Source: a virus | Direction: 5' to 3' (one strand) | Virus record (IMG/VR): IMGVR_UViG_3300042691_011893 | Span: 1-21,010 of that record | DNA length: 21,010 nt | Shown: piece after piece, positions 65-20,282 of the stretch | Position numbering within the stretch: the stretch's first letter is position 1 | How the letters are laid out: every line of letters starts with the position of its first letter | Translations under genes and position numbers: made by a program | The notes under the pieces: generated by a model | The model's input: only the letters and a program-made list of their open reading frames with translations | Databases searched by the model: none | Told to the model about the DNA's origin: nothing

Positions 65-1084
65 ATGCCCACTCTCGACATCTTCAACAACGACGCCTTT
101 GGTCTGCAGTCGTTGACCAAGGCGATCAACGAATCGCCGTACCAGCCGATGCTGATCGGCTCGCTCGGCCTGTTCGGCGAAGAAGGAATCAGCACGACCA
201 GCCTCTCGATCGAGATGCGCGGTACGACCTTGACGCTGATTCCGGCGTCTGCACGTGGCGCCCCTGGGCGGCCTGAGCGCAACGACAAGTCTCGCCTGAT
301 CCCGATCAACACCGTACATCTGCCGCAGCGAGCGTCTGTGAACGCCGATGAAGTGCAGAACCTGCGCGCGTTCGGCACCGAGAACGAAGTTGAGACAGTG
401 CAGAACCTGATCAACCGCAAACTCGGTAAACTGCGGCGCAACCTGGATGTGACGATTGAGTGGCAGCGTATTGGCTCAATCAAGGGTCAAGTGCTCGACG
501 CGGACGGCACGACCGTGCTGCTGGATATGTTCACGACCTTCGGCGTGGCGCAGCAAACGCACCAGATGCTTCTGGCAACCGACGCGACCAAGGTCAAGAG
601 TCTGATCGTGCAAGCGCAGCGCAAGGCGGAAGACGCGCTCGGCGGCGTGATGCATCGTGGCTTCGTCGCGCTGTGCGGCAAGAACTTCTTCGACTCACTG
701 GTCGGTCATCCGGCCGTCGAGAAGGCTTATGACCGCTGGCTTGATGGTGCCTTCCTGCGCGACATCCAGCGCTCGCAAGAGAGCGGCTCGCCCGGCTTCC
801 AGTTCTGCGGCGTGTCGTGGCACGAGTACAGGGGCTCGGTGTCGGGTCAGAACTTCGTGGCTGACGATGAGGCTTACCTGATCCCGCAAGGCGTGCCGGA
901 TATGTTCATGACGAACTACGCACCGGCCGATTACATGGAGACGGTCAATACCATCGGTCTGCCCTACTACGCCAAGCAGGAGATGATGCGGATGAACAAG
1001 GGCGTCGAGATCGAGGCGCAGTCCAACCCGATCTCGATCTGCAGCCGCCCGAACGCGATCGTCAAGCTGCTGCGCACCACCTAA
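65..1084 (+). CDS. Major capsid protein (lambda gpE family)
   Basis: This is the 339-residue major head subunit, almost the length of lambda gpE (341). The N-terminus (MPTLDIFNNDAFGLQSLT) is typical of the Phage_cap_E family, in which the protein opens with a short 'D-I-F-..D-A-F' segment. The family C-terminus, with a run like 'N-P-I-S-I-C-S-R-P', is also present. The ATG is preceded by AGGAG at 52-56 with 8-base spacing, the strongest ribosome site in the head module, as expected for the most abundant virion protein. It lies between the decoration-protein end and the head-tail joining gene. Just downstream are a small start-codon hairpin and an intrinsic-terminator-like hairpin that could keep capsid expression above that of later genes. 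Family assignment is by recognition of motifs and gene order. Confidence 0.9.
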   Translation: MPTLDIFNNDAFGLQSLTKAINESPYQPMLIGSLGLFGEEGISTTSLSIEMRGTTLTLIPASARGAPGRPERNDKSRLIPINTVHLPQRASVNADEVQNLRAFGTENEVETVQNLINRKLGKLRRNLDVTIEWQRIGSIKGQVLDADGTTVLLDMFTTFGVAQQTHQMLLATDATKVKSLIVQAQRKAEDALGGVMHRGFVALCGKNFFDSLVGHPAVEKAYDRWLDGAFLRDIQRSQESGSPGFQFCGVSWHEYRGSVSGQNFVADDEAYLIPQGVPDMFMTNYAPADYMETVNTIGLPYYAKQEMMRMNKGVEIEAQSNPISICSRPNAIVKLLRTT

Positions 1085-1092: not shown

Positions 1093-1371
1093 AACCCGAT
1101 CCTGAGTCGGGCCGCAGAACGCATCCTCGCTCGCATGGGCGAGGATGCGTTTTTGCGTGGCACGGTCGAAACCGTGGTCAACATCCAGCAGGATGTCGAG
1201 ATGACCGACGCCGAGGGCAACGTGGCCTACATCCGCTACCTTGCCCGCCTGCCGTCAAAGCACGCGCCGCAAAAGGGCGACACACTCGCCGTTGGCACCG
1301 ACAACTACGTGCTCGACGCGCGAGTTGACGACGACAGTTACTTCGCCAGGTACATCCTGCGCAAGGTTTAG
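1087..1371 (+). CDS. Head-tail joining protein, gpFII-like
   Basis: A 94-residue protein located where lambda has the FII head-tail joining gene, between capsid and gpZ. Its C-terminal half has the beta-rich pattern 'KGD-L-VG--NYVLDARVDDD' expected for the small barrel of FII/Gifsy-2-type joining proteins (often labelled ATP-binding sugar-transporter-like). These sit at the neck, where the finished tail docks. It begins with GTG at 1087, or GTG at 1090, only two bases after the capsid stop and without a Shine-Dalgarno sequence, so it probably depends on ribosomes arriving from the capsid gene. Codons 11-23 form a 13-base-pair hairpin followed by five T residues, so part of this coding sequence may double as a terminator. 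The family is diverse; I am moderately sure of the role. Confidence 0.6.
   Translation: MVNPILSRAAERILARMGEDAFLRGTVETVVNIQQDVEMTDAEGNVAYIRYLARLPSKHAPQKGDTLAVGTDNYVLDARVDDDSYFARYILRKV
1118..1154 (+). terminator. Intragenic intrinsic-terminator-like hairpin after capsid gene
   Basis: AACGCATCCTCGC (1118-1130) pairs perfectly with GCGAGGATGCGTT (1139-1151) around an eight-base loop, and T residues run from 1150 to 1154. A 13-base-pair stem with a U-tract is a textbook intrinsic terminator shape on the plus strand. It lies entirely inside the joining-protein reading frame, 34 bases past the capsid stop. Partial termination here would give many capsid transcripts and fewer for later genes. Translation through it could prevent folding, which would make read-through depend on ribosome traffic. 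Confidence 0.6.
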
Positions 1372-2649: not shown

Positions 2650-3600
2650 ATGGCATCTCGTGCATTCCTCGGCGCTGGCGACCTCTACATCGCGCGCTAC
2701 GTCAACGGCGCCTTTGAGGACTACAGCGGTCCTTATGAGTGCGATCAGTTTGAGATCAAGCCGAACATCGACCTCAAAGAAAAGACCTCCCGTGGTCGCA
2801 GCACCTACGGCCAGGTGATCGAGTCGGTTGCGGTTCCGCAGCCTGCTGACTTGACTGTCGCGCTGTCGGAGGTCAACAAGGAGTCGTTGGCGATTGCTCT
2901 GCTTGGCACGACCGCGGTGCTCAACCAAACTTCCGGCACTCTGACCAACGAGCGCTTTGCGGCAAAACTGGACAAGTGGGTTGCGCTCTCCAAGGCGAAC
3001 TTCACCGGCACGGTGACTGTCGCGGGTGACGCCGCCAGCGTGACCGGCGCAATCGCCGGTACGACTCTGACGGTATCGGCTGTCGCTTCTGGCACGCTGC
3101 ATGTCGGTCAGACGCTCACTGGTTCCGGTGTCACGGTCGGCACCACGATCACGGCGCTCGGCACCGGCACAGGTGGCACAGGCACCTACACCGTGAGCGC
3201 GACGCAGACGGTTACTAGCACGGCGATCTCTGCCTCTGGCCCGACCTACGTTGACGGCGTGGACTACTTGGTGAACAAACAGCTTGGATGGGTGAAGAAT
3301 CTGCCAGGCGGCGCTATCGCAAACGGACAGTTTGTGCGTGTCAGCGGTGCTTACGGCACGATCACCGGCACGGAAGTGCGCGGCATGACTGATTCACAAC
3401 TTCGCGCACGATTCAAACTGGACGGCAAGAACTTCGCCGATAACCAGCCTGTGATCGTCACGGTCCACGAAGCGGTTATCGCGGCTGACTCCGCGTTCAA
3501 CTTCTTGGCCGACGACTTTGCGTCGATCTCGCTGCCAGGCCGCATGAAGACTCCTGCGGGCTTCAGCGAGCCGTTCACCGTGCATCTGCGCGACGCCTAA
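2650..3600 (+). CDS. Major tail tube protein with inserted Gly/Thr-rich module
   Basis: A 316-residue protein that would form the stacked rings of the tail tube. Residues 1-118 and 198-316 match the plan of prophage tail tube proteins: 'DLYIARY', '[17 protein letters not shown]', then '[16 protein letters not shown]', '[11 protein letters not shown]' and the end '[20 protein letters not shown]'. Between them, about residues 128-196 are a Gly/Thr/Val-rich module that looks like a separate Ig-like or surface beta domain. The gene has its own good ribosome site (GGAG 2639-2642) after a 68-base gap and is followed by a strong terminator, both consistent with high output. In lambda, chaperone genes G and T follow the tube gene; here they are absent. 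Confidence 0.82.
3031..3237 (+). other. Gly/Thr-rich beta module inserted in tail tube protein
   Basis: About residues 128-196 of the tube protein carry '[20 protein letters not shown]', a low-complexity '[10 protein letters not shown]' and '[12 protein letters not shown]'. This type of module recurs in unrelated phage structural proteins and is inserted between two strands of the otherwise normal tube fold (after 'ANFTGTVTV', before '[10 protein letters not shown]'). It would be expected to project from the outer tail surface. The nucleotide sequence is repetitive (several GGCAC units), which may help exchange by recombination. The insertion is seen directly by comparison with the usual family layout; the decorative role is inferred. 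Confidence 0.6.
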
Positions 3601-3624
3601 TCATCGGTTGACGGGGGCCGGCTC

Positions 3625-3660
3625 GGGGCGTCTGGGTTAAGACCCTGACGCCCCGTTTTT
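3625..3660 (+). terminator. Intrinsic terminator between tail tube and tape measure
   Basis: GGGGCGTC (3625-3632) pairs perfectly with GACGCCCC (3647-3654), with further inner GGG/CCC pairing (3634-3636 with 3643-3645), followed by GTTTTT at 3655-3660. It lies 24 bases after the tube stop and 16 bases before the tape-measure ATG. It should give abundant tube transcripts and few for the tape measure, matching the very different copy numbers in a tail. The tape-measure start has no clear Shine-Dalgarno sequence, which fits low expression. Confidence 0.82.
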
Positions 3661-3676: not shown

Positions 3677-6600
3677 ATGCCGACTGAGAACTCGCGCGAC
3701 ATCGAGCTTCGGATTGCAGCGACCACAAGTGGGTCGGAGCAAGTCAAGAAACTCGCCTCTGAACTCGATCAACTGTCCAAGGAGGGTGGTGAGGCCACCC
3801 CGGAGTTCGTTCGCCTTGGGGAAGCCCTTGATCGGGTCGCGGCGCAGGGTGATGCTGTTGCTGCGCTGAATGCTGTTGAACAACAGGTTGCGCAAACATC
3901 CTCGGCGTTCGCGGAAGCCCGCACGCGAGTCGAACAACTGCAGGCTGCGCTCAACGAGCAGCGCGCTACAACTGAGGGCTTCCGCGCCGCTCAGATCACC
4001 GCGCAGCAGGCCGTTGATCTGACGGCCAAGGGTCTACGTAAGCAAGAGGCTGCGCTCAACCTGCTACGCGCTGAGTACCAAGGTGCAGAGCGCAACACCG
4101 ACGCCTATCGCGCCAAGAACCGCGAATTGCAGCGGAGCATCGCGGAACTTGAGAACACCCTGGCCGATCAGCGCACCACGCTGAGGTCTGCGAACGGTGA
4201 TCTGCGGCAGAACGAGACTGCCCTGACCAGGGCTGAGGGCGCCTACAACCGCGCGTCTACGGCCGCTCGCCGTCTTGAGCAGACGCTATCCGGGCAGACT
4301 TCAAAACTCGCACAGTCTCGCGCTGAACTTGAGCGCCTTGGTGTATCGGCAACCACGGCGGCTGATGCGCAGAGCAAGGTCGATGCGGCCTTTACACAGG
4401 TCCGGCAGAAACTCAACGAGACCGCTAGAAGCTACACGCAGCTTGCGAGTGTCACTGAGGCAGTTGCTCGATCCAACGAGAGAAACGCTGCGCTTGCCCG
4501 TCAAGCCGCTGAGCAACGTGCTGACGCCGAAGCCCGTGCAGCGGCAGCCACTCGTCAGGCAGCACGTGAGCAGGAAGCCGCGGCGCTGCGCGCCAAACTC
4601 TCGACTGAGCAACAAGCGGCGGCTGCACGTCAGGCGGCTGCCGCGCAGAAGGTGCTTAATGACACGTTTGGCATAGCGGGCGTTCGCTCAACCGAAGCAA
4701 TCAAGGCTGAGATTGATCAGTTATCCCGCGCACTGGTTGAACTGCGCAACAACAGCAACGTCACTGCCGCCGAGTTCAACCGTGCGTTCCAAAGTGCGCA
4801 GGGGCGTCTCGGCGCTCTGCAAGCCGAACTTAACGGGGCGCCAGAGGCCCTTGGCAGGACGAATGTCGCTCTCGGCGCGGTGCGGTCTGCATTCTCCCAA
4901 CTGATCGCAATCTACGGCGTCTTTGAACTGTCGCAGAAGTTCATCGACGCGAATATTCAGCTTGAGACTCTGCGCCGCTCACTCGCTCTGGTCACGGGCA
5001 GCACTGAGGCTGCGACTCGTCAGATTCAGTTGTTGCAAGACACTGCCAGCCGGGCCGGTGTCTCTGTCGGAGAGATCAGCGCTGCCTTCATCAAGTTTCA
5101 AGCGTCGCTGAACGGCGCGAACGTCCCTCTGGAAACAACCGAGGGCTTGTTCAAAGCGGTAATCAACGCATCTGGACAGCTTGGCCTGTCCTCGCAGCGC
5201 ACAAGCCTGATCCTCGAAGCCCTTGCGCAGACCGCCAGCAAGGGCGTCGTGTCAATGGAAGAGTTGCGGCAGCAGCTTGGTGATTCGTTACCTGGCGCAC
5301 TCAGTTTGACCGCCAAGGGTCTTGGCATCACGACCGCTGAACTTATCGAACTGACTGAGAGCGGCCGGCTGTTGGCCGACGATTTTCTTCCTGCGCTTCG
5401 TAAGTCCCTAGTCGCAACATACGGCGAAGGGCAAACGCGAGTTGAAGGTCTGCGCGCAGCGTGGAACCGCTTCAAGAACACGCTCACCGAAACATCGCAA
5501 ATCGTCGGAGATAGCGGTCCTGTATCGATTCTTTCGAAGGCGCTAGACAACCTTAGCGGCAGGATTACTGCGGTAACAACGACGTGGCGCACATTCAGCA
5601 CGTTGGTATCTCAAACATCAACTAACACGCAGTTTGATCTAAGTCGGCCGATTGAGTCGCTGCGCTCATTTGGCAGCGCGGTGCAGACAGAGATTGGGCG
5701 GCTGGCTCGGCCAGAGTTCGTAAAATCAATTGCCGATTTTAGAACGGCACTTACAAACTTTGATGTCACGGATGTCGCGGCATCGTATCGCCGGTTGCAA
5801 ATTGAATCCGACAAGCTGGCTGAGTCTTACAAGAAGACCGCAGATCAGTATGTCAGAACTGCACAAGAGTCGCGCAGTCTTGAACAAGAGACAACCCGCC
5901 TAAAGAACGCCGCGCAAGCGCTTTCTACGCAGGCCACTAGCACTGCAAGTGCATGGGTCGGTCTTGAAGTCTCGTACAAGAAGGTTCGCACTGAGGTTGA
6001 GAAGAACATCACTCAGGCTCAGAAACTTGCCGAGGCGCAGAAGATTCAAGGCGAAGCGTCTGTCGCTGTCGCGCAGTTGTCTCTCAACGAGCAGCAGACC
6101 AGACAGGCATCGGCAGACGCCGCCGTCAACAACGCGCTGGCTCTGCGCAATCTTGCCGATCTGCGTCAGACAGAGGCGGACGTTATTCGTGCACAGATCG
6201 AGGCTCTGCGTGCCGAAGCCGAGCGAGTCGGCGACAACACTGGTGCGCGCAGGGAAGCGATAAAGGCGCTGCAAGACACGCTTGCAATCAGGACTGCCGA
6301 GGCTCAGAAGGCTAGGGAGTCGGCAGAGGCAACGCAGATCGACGCTGAGGCAAAGCTGCTTGCCGTGCGGGTCTATCAGGACAACTCGGCCGCTCTGACG
6401 CAACTGCGCGACGCGTATCTTCAAACCGAGCGCGCGCTTAGCGTCACGATTGCACTGGAAAAGCAGGGTCAGGCCACGAAGGAGGACGTTCGCAGAGCGA
6501 CCATCCTGGCAGCGGAAGCCGAAGCGCTATACCAGGATGCGGTCAACGATTCGGCCGCTGCCGTTGAGCGCAAGCGTCAGGCAATCAACGCCAGCCTAAG

Positions 6601-19310: not shown

Positions 19311-19330
19311 TTACCCCTTCTTAGACAGCG
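19178..19330 (+). repeat. 11-base direct repeat flanking candidate attP
   Basis: CTTAGACAGCG occurs at 19178-19188 and again at 19320-19330. The second copy is inside the last codons of integrase. The copies are 142 bases apart, a spacing compatible with integrase arm-type sites or with ends of an att region. Two exact 11-mers so close together are unlikely by chance, but function is unproven. Confidence 0.45.
19273..19296. repeat. Inverted repeat near integrase 3' end
   Basis: GATTCCA (19273-19279) and TGGAATC (19290-19296) are perfect inverted copies separated by ten bases, 15 bases from the integrase stop. No T-run follows on either strand, so it is a weak terminator candidate. It could be an integrase core-site pair, since tyrosine recombinases bind inverted half-sites around a 6-8 base overlap, although ten bases is a little wide. 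Confidence 0.45.
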
Positions 19331-20282
19331 CAGTCGGCCCCTTGACCAGCGGCACCCGCTTGCGTCGGATGTAGCGCTCGGTCATCTGGCGGCTGGCGTG
19401 ACCGCCGAGCTTCTGCGGGTCAAGCCCCTGGTTCTCGGCGTCTGTGAGGCTCTTGGCGCGCACGTCATGGATCGTGGCGTCCGGGATGCCTGCGAGCGCC
19501 CTGGCGCGATCCCATTGGTCCTTGACGGTCTTGTAGGCCGGCGCCCCGCCTCGGCGACTGTGGAACAGCGTCATCGCCTTGACGTTGGTGTGCAAGACCA
19601 ACGCGGTGTCCACCGCAGCGCGCAATTCTTGCGACCAGACCACCACGAGCTTCGCCTTGCCCTTCTGCTGCCGGAAGGCGAGCCCCTGGTCGGTGATCTG
19701 ACTCCGGTGCAACCCGATCACGTCGCCGACGCGCTGGCCGGTCAAGTACAGGATGTCAATCATGCACTGCAACCGCAGCGGCGCGTGCGAGCGGATGGCA
19801 GCCAGTTCGTGATCCTCAAGGTAGCGATCTCGCTCGCGCTCATCAAAGCGCTTGATCCCGATGCATGGATTCCATTCGACCAACTGCTGCTCAACCGCAT
19901 AGGCGAAGATTGAGCGCAGCACTGAGAGCACGCGGTTCGCCATGTTCGGCGTCTTGCGCATCGCCAGTTTTATCTCCGCAACGTGCTTAGGCTTCACGTC
20001 CTCTGGTCGGAACTCCACCAATGCCGCCTTCAAGCGCACGGCTGCTGCGTCGTACTGCTTGCGTGTGTTCTCGGCGAGACCTTCGCAGATGATCGGCATC
20101 GCCACGTCAATGAGAGAAATCATCGAGCCTGTCGGCGCGGCTGCAGTGCGCTCAGCGTAAGCCTGTAGCGATTCGTCAAGCGTCTCGCCAAGCCGATGCC
20201 ACTTGTTCCTCTTGTCTACAAAATAAAACGCCCCGTGCTTTTGGTGCATGCGGGGCGGGAGATGCCGGGCTTTGCGTGGCAT
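19311..20282 (-). CDS. int: Tyrosine recombinase integrase
   Basis: A 323-residue phage integrase that would join the phage to the host chromosome. Residues about 55-135 are the core-binding domain ('AENTRKQYDAAAVRL', 'NMANRVLSVLRSIFAYAVEQ'). The catalytic set is complete: Arg184 ('LTGQRVGDV'), Lys207/Lys209 in the beta hairpin ('RQQKGKAKLVVVW'), His272 and Arg275 ('IHDVRAKS'), His295 ('LGGHASRQM') and Tyr304 ('TERYIRRKR'). The N-terminal 50 residues ('GAFYFVDKRNKWHRLGE') form the short arm-binding region. The ATG shares one base with the upstream DUF4224 stop, so the two are coupled. A terminator-like hairpin lies in codons 9-18. The gene ends beside the candidate attP. Confidence 0.93.
   Translation of the reverse strand: MPRKARHLPPRMHQKHGAFYFVDKRNKWHRLGETLDESLQAYAERTAAAPTGSMISLIDVAMPIICEGLAENTRKQYDAAAVRLKAALVEFRPEDVKPKHVAEIKLAMRKTPNMANRVLSVLRSIFAYAVEQQLVEWNPCIGIKRFDERERDRYLEDHELAAIRSHAPLRLQCMIDILYLTGQRVGDVIGLHRSQITDQGLAFRQQKGKAKLVVVWSQELRAAVDTALVLHTNVKAMTLFHSRRGGAPAYKTVKDQWDRARALAGIPDATIHDVRAKSLTDAENQGLDPQKLGGHASRQMTERYIRRKRVPLVKGPTALSKKG
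20219..20257 (-). terminator. Terminator-like hairpin inside 5' end of integrase
   Basis: Read on the minus strand, CGCCCCG (20257-20251) pairs with CGGGGCG (20235-20229), with a further TGC/GCA pairing inside after a small bulge. TTTTATTTTG follows immediately (20228-20219). A stem of seven mainly GC pairs plus a T-rich tract has the form of an intrinsic terminator, placed only about 25 bases into the integrase frame. It may hold back int transcription unless translation or antitermination lets polymerase pass. Confidence 0.55.

Follow-up and report, generated by a model that had tools for sequence, protein, structure and literature searches.

A terminator-like hairpin embedded in the coding sequence after the major capsid gene of a family of tailed phages

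The capsid-joining gene junction

The window analysed here is a virus fragment of 21 kb (21,010 nucleotides in full). Near its left end lies a major capsid protein gene of the Phage_cap_E family (65–1084, plus strand; Pfam PF03864, E 2.6e-97; PHROG 29, major head protein), followed on the same strand by a small head-tail joining-like open reading frame (1087–1371). The capsid stop codon, TAA, occupies positions 1082–1084, and the GTG start of the joining gene, at 1087, comes only 2 nt later. The name ‘joining protein’ is fair but unproven, as the gene matches the lambda FII-like attachment family only weakly (Pfam PF05354, Phage_attach, E 0.0045, below cut-off). Further downstream, a major tail protein gene (2650–3600, plus strand; PHROG 807, major tail protein with Ig-like domain, E 8.5e-36) precedes the tape measure gene at 3677. 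A tyrosine integrase gene on the minus strand (19311–20282) makes it probable that the phage is temperate. A search of the window for tRNA genes gave none.

At 1118–1154 of the plus strand, within codons 11–23 of the joining-like gene, we find an element with the anatomy of an intrinsic terminator, that is, a short G+C-rich stem with a small loop, followed at once on the sense strand by a U tract. A sequence-only reading of this DNA had described here a perfect 13-bp stem, an 8-nt loop and five T residues, all located right after a capsid gene. Base-by-base complementarity bears out this description: the 5′ arm (1118–1130, AACGCATCCTCGC) is perfectly complementary to the 3′ arm (1139–1151, GCGAGGATGCGTT) across the loop (1131–1138, TCGCATGG), and the Pfam match given above identifies the upstream gene as a capsid gene. 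The loop could be closed further, to 4 nt, by pairing of 1131–1132 with 1137–1138 (T-G and C-G). The T run (1150–1154, codons TTT TTG) overlaps the stem, two of its five T residues pairing with the AA of the stem; alternatively, the element can be read as a G+C-rich stem of 11 bp followed by TTTTTG. The U tract, TTTTTGCG, is short and is broken by GCG.

The 71-nt fold at this site has an energy of −41.7 kcal/mol (z −5.35), a value reached by none of 200 dinucleotide shuffles. The hairpin itself, at −27.1 kcal/mol, is the most stable T-tailed hairpin on either strand of the window, and in 60 dinucleotide shuffles of the whole window the best T-tailed hairpin had a median energy of −13.2 and a minimum of −27.0 kcal/mol. 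A generic scan of the whole window gave 15 terminator-like sites versus 20 expected; there is no excess, so that a general abundance of such sites in the window is not the explanation. Synonymous recoding of the peptide from the window sequence alone gave p = 0.008 for pairs and p = 0.027 for energy, and it is the comparative evidence described below, rather than these single-sequence values, that we regard as decisive. No Rfam family matched the window above its gathering score, the two hits obtained (E about 0.4) falling far below it.

The second most stable call in the window is an intergenic intrinsic terminator (CGGGGCGTCTGGGTTAAGACCCTGACGCCCCG TTTTT; 3624–3660, plus strand), situated downstream of the major tail protein gene and ahead of the tape measure gene.

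Predicted terminators after the capsid and tail genes of relatives

Capsid queries recovered 246 loci with a capsid open reading frame, 118 of them with distinct downstream sequence; these relatives are mutually related, and were thinned by identity of the downstream stretch only. Terminators, defined as hairpins of −12 kcal/mol or lower with a T tail, were called in 100-nt bins around the capsid stop, using a home-made caller whose hand-set thresholds were identical for all bins and strands. Among the 118 distinct loci, the first 100 nt after the capsid stop contained 38 sense-strand calls; the other 39 bins contained 29 together, averaging less than one each, and on the antisense strand the first bin after the stop contained 7. 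This first caller admitted loops of up to 9 nt, and it misses two relatives with 12-nt loops (L032 and L065); the limit in a later caller was 14 nt.

Some of the post-capsid calls lie inside the next gene and some lie between genes. The family of the joining gene comprises 39 distinct members, for which the codon register was set on an invariant glycine. The start of the joining gene overlaps or abuts the capsid stop, and the embedded element begins 25–46 nt after that stop in the 39 relatives, with the hairpin 21–33 nt into the gene. As the start of the next gene coincides with the capsid stop or is at most a few bases away from it, the terminator is written in the first codons of that gene. 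The embedded form is also present in two cultured phages, Curvibacter phage PCA1 and Acidovorax phage ACPWH, and, when 299 genomes from the family to which Cupriavidus belongs were searched with a covariance model, two of the hits, L252 and L269, proved to be true prophage copies. Six further, weaker matches of the model (E 5e-5 to 4e-4 per genome) have no adjacent capsid or joining gene and are probably due to chance.

Where there is room between the genes, an ordinary intergenic terminator follows the capsid stop, as in L010, L012, L014, L015, L018, L077, L094, L224 and L229, as well as in phages PAK_P4, rV5, CR9, ICP1 and Cy-LDV1. It is annotated in the PAK_P4 and rV5 records; for Cy-LDV1, the hairpin was identified by eye in the printed sequence. 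The five named phages have their terminator at the same post-capsid place and belong to the same capsid superfamily (Phage_cap_E), but their terminators are intergenic, with the next gene starting after them, whereas the one in the window is embedded. The predicted post-capsid element is common, not universal: among the relatives checked, it is absent or unclear in L216, L005, L051, Wolbachia WO, AcaML1, RR1-A, Ahp2 and Turba. The first three of these carry the joining gene or one related to it, which counts somewhat against the reading as a terminator.

Some loci carry other hairpins near the capsid gene. In L007, L090, L093 and their relatives, a 9-bp hairpin (GCACCGCCTTTAGGGCGGTGC) with no T run lies within the following gene, at +33 to +53 from the capsid stop; it may be a degenerate or a different element. 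In L002, L008, L055, L147, L200 and L221, sense-strand terminators lie about 1,000–1,100 nt before the capsid stop, a short way upstream of the capsid gene. They probably follow the decoration gene, which would add a third step in some relatives.

Given its position 21–33 nt into the joining gene, which itself overlaps or adjoins the capsid stop, the hairpin might also act on translation, slowing or gating the ribosomes that reinitiate at that gene and thereby setting the level of its protein. However, the start codon and the region upstream of it are outside the hairpin, the T run is left unexplained by such a role, and in distant relatives the element lies between the genes, ahead of the next one. 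We, therefore, consider an action on translation very unlikely.

The terminator after the major tail protein gene is conserved as well. A call follows this gene in 32 of the 44 loci with a recognisable relative of it, and, under relaxed thresholds, both the post-capsid and the post-tail sites are called in 30 of 35 joining-family members. The stem of the embedded site is the stronger of the two (median energy −24.1 versus −18.4), while its U tract is the weaker (median score 1.87 versus 3.24). The post-tail stem CCCGCCA...TGGCGGG is common to many relatives.

Selection on pairing, codon choice and the U tract

In nearly all of the 39 joining-family members, the best stem falls in the same register relative to the codons (i + j = 59 in a 63-nt frame). 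The pairing in this register amounts to 86.5% of cells (36 distinct sequences, 15 pairs), in contrast to 40–52% in slid controls, in which the 3′ partner was moved by 1–3 columns. Cells with a double change numbered 78, as against 27 in shuffles, and none of 500 shuffles reached the observed value of any measure. On a capsid-protein tree, about 61 independent paired-to-paired double changes were counted versus 4–12 in slid registers, a large margin, though one obtained from one tree and one parsimony reconstruction. L216 and, in part, L034 are without the in-register stem; L034 has a small hairpin with a T run about 15 nt upstream of the usual place. Two members, L046 and L064, have the embedded hairpin displaced against the codon frame by one base on either side, and it is stable there too.

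The stem is a near-perfect inverted repeat in the DNA too, as would be expected of a palindrome that binds a dimeric protein or serves as a signal for recombination or packaging. The sequence of the arms, however, changes freely while the pairing stays, and the stem is followed on the sense strand by a synonymously selected T run (see below), both of which make a DNA palindrome extremely improbable.

Each peptide was also recoded synonymously, according to the codon usage of the capsid and joining genes from the same locus. The members form on average 12.5 of 14 pairs, versus 9.0 of 14 after recoding (39 sequences); p was below 0.01 for pairs in 26 of the 39 sequences and for energy in 29, with a median z of −3.3. 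Synonymous structure peaks strongly at just one place in the joining gene, the hairpin, where the mean z is −3.2 and 89% of members lie below −2. Outside it, z stays between about −0.9 and +0.6, without a second strong peak and with a weak one 9–13 codons after the glycine. The residues encoded on both flanks of the hairpin are conserved in relatives.

These results bear on the possibility that the stem arises incidentally from the peptide RILARMGEDA in a genome rich in G+C. Indeed, the peptide alone favours about 9 of the 14 pairs. However, almost all relatives gain further pairs through synonymous choices and through matched swaps of amino acids, and the rest of the joining gene is without such a signal; we consider this explanation refuted. 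A chance origin of the hairpin is ruled out by recoding, covariation, the tree-mapped double changes and the shuffles.

A second long hairpin is seen at +82 to +122 from the capsid stop in L068 and at +63 to +102 in L035 and L036, spanning the codons around the conserved VNIEHGVQ of the joining gene. The mean z of this region is about −0.8 overall, and the signal is very strong in a few members.

The register of the stem pairs whole codons as reverse complements (CGC-GCG, ATC-GAT, CTC-GAG, GCC-GGC), and the choice of codon at one position follows the residue at the other. Where Val (GTC or GTT) is partnered with Asp, the latter is encoded by GAC in 17 of 17 cases, versus GAT in 12 of 12 cases where the partner is Ile (ATC) (Fisher p 2e-8 for Val/Ile versus GAC/GAT). 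Other members swap both partner residues, to Leu-Glu, Ala-Gly or Gly-Pro. The RNA constraint, therefore, extends into the protein sequence. A signal kept despite changes in both its letters and its amino acids must be under selection.

The double constraint on these codons had been predicted by the sequence-only reading, which also proposed an alignment of homologues as the way to find it; indeed, compensatory and synonymous changes across the relatives preserve the stem and the T run. The same reading held that homologues with the same residues and no stem would count against the element. Nearly all relatives keep the hairpin; besides L216 and, in part, L034, mentioned above, a Hahella locus (L015) retains GEDA in its joining gene with no stem readable at that site in its sequence, and has its terminator in intergenic DNA, right after the capsid stop.

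Selection is also visible beyond the stem. Of 34 Leu codons after the stem, 22 are TTG or TTA, versus 4.5 expected, and the synonymous excess of T (z 12.7, 7.8 and 6.3) is confined to the three codons that follow the stem. The selection of T right after the stem favours a terminator over a plain hairpin. An alternative of the latter kind is a 3′-end protector or processing barrier, which would stabilise the capsid part of the transcript after cleavage without stopping transcription. The maintenance of a strong hairpin 25–46 nt past the capsid stop would suit such a barrier, as would the 5 of 39 relatives that keep the stem with few T. However, a protector needs no U tract, yet synonymous T is selected in the three post-stem codons, and the intergenic counterparts of the element are standard terminators; we thus regard protection of a 3′ end as unlikely. 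Programmed frameshifting was rejected, as in the alignment the T run comes after the hairpin, not before it, and there is no in-frame X XXY YYZ heptamer.

Predicted role in late transcription

The above comparisons indicate that the element is very probably a leaky intrinsic terminator, written in coding sequence, which steps transcription down after the capsid gene. It would act as an RNA signal of the sense strand: a polymerase that has passed the capsid gene would meet the G+C-rich hairpin and the short U tract, where a part of the polymerases would stop and a part would read on. Such partial stopping would leave more capsid mRNA than mRNA of the neck and tail genes, and the intergenic terminator after the major tail protein gene would bring a further step down. 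We infer from the sequence and its conservation that termination would take place at this site, would be partial and would set the ratio of the capsid to the other structural proteins. Through it, the terminator probably determines the amount of shell protein relative to the rest of the particle.

The plus strand of the window yielded no sigma-70-like promoter, so that the downstream genes would need readthrough, antitermination or another type of promoter for their expression. Tailed virions usually contain the products of the capsid and major tail genes in the greatest amounts, and predicted terminators after these two genes fit a stepwise decrease of the transcript along the operon.

The hairpin may also be subject to translation. 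With its start 25–46 nt past the capsid stop, it is beyond the reach of a ribosome positioned on the stop codon, given the ribosome footprint; ribosomes translating the capsid gene, therefore, should not block it. Reinitiation on the joining gene, by contrast, could bring a ribosome into a position to do so. It is conceivable, though rather doubtful, that reinitiating ribosomes melt the hairpin, tying transcription of the neck and tail genes to translation of the capsid, and that the RNA constraint has shaped the N terminus of the joining protein throughout the family.

A terminator is known immediately after capsid gene 10 of T7, where genes 11 and 12 are expressed by readthrough (PMC5592923). 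The element described here resembles this terminator, Tphi, in lying immediately downstream of the major capsid gene. However, Tphi acts on the phage's own RNA polymerase and is placed between genes, whereas the present element is inside the codons of the following gene, and the 21-kb fragment showed no phage RNA polymerase. An apparent strong terminator was also reported immediately downstream of the MCP gene of LUZ100 (PMC10134795), a T7-like phage with a capsid operon unrelated to the present one.

In B. subtilis bmrB, impaired translation makes an intrinsic terminator internal to the open reading frame more efficient (PMC4191407). The present element is similarly embedded in a translated open reading frame, in codons 11–23. 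bmrB, however, is a leader peptide gene with alternative, antibiotic-responsive antiterminator folds, whereas the host of the present element is a structural protein gene in which our scan of the gene showed no other strongly constrained fold. No report of an embedded post-capsid element was found in the open-licence literature.

Terminators after the capsid gene were, thus, already known; the one described here is embedded in coding sequence and is kept by compensation of base pairs and amino acids across a broad set of tailed phages. Terminator finders that are limited to intergenic DNA miss embedded sites of this kind. Two transcriptional steps are predicted in one late operon of these phages, one following the major capsid gene and the other the major tail protein gene, and at the first of them an RNA signal dictates part of the sequence of a structural protein.
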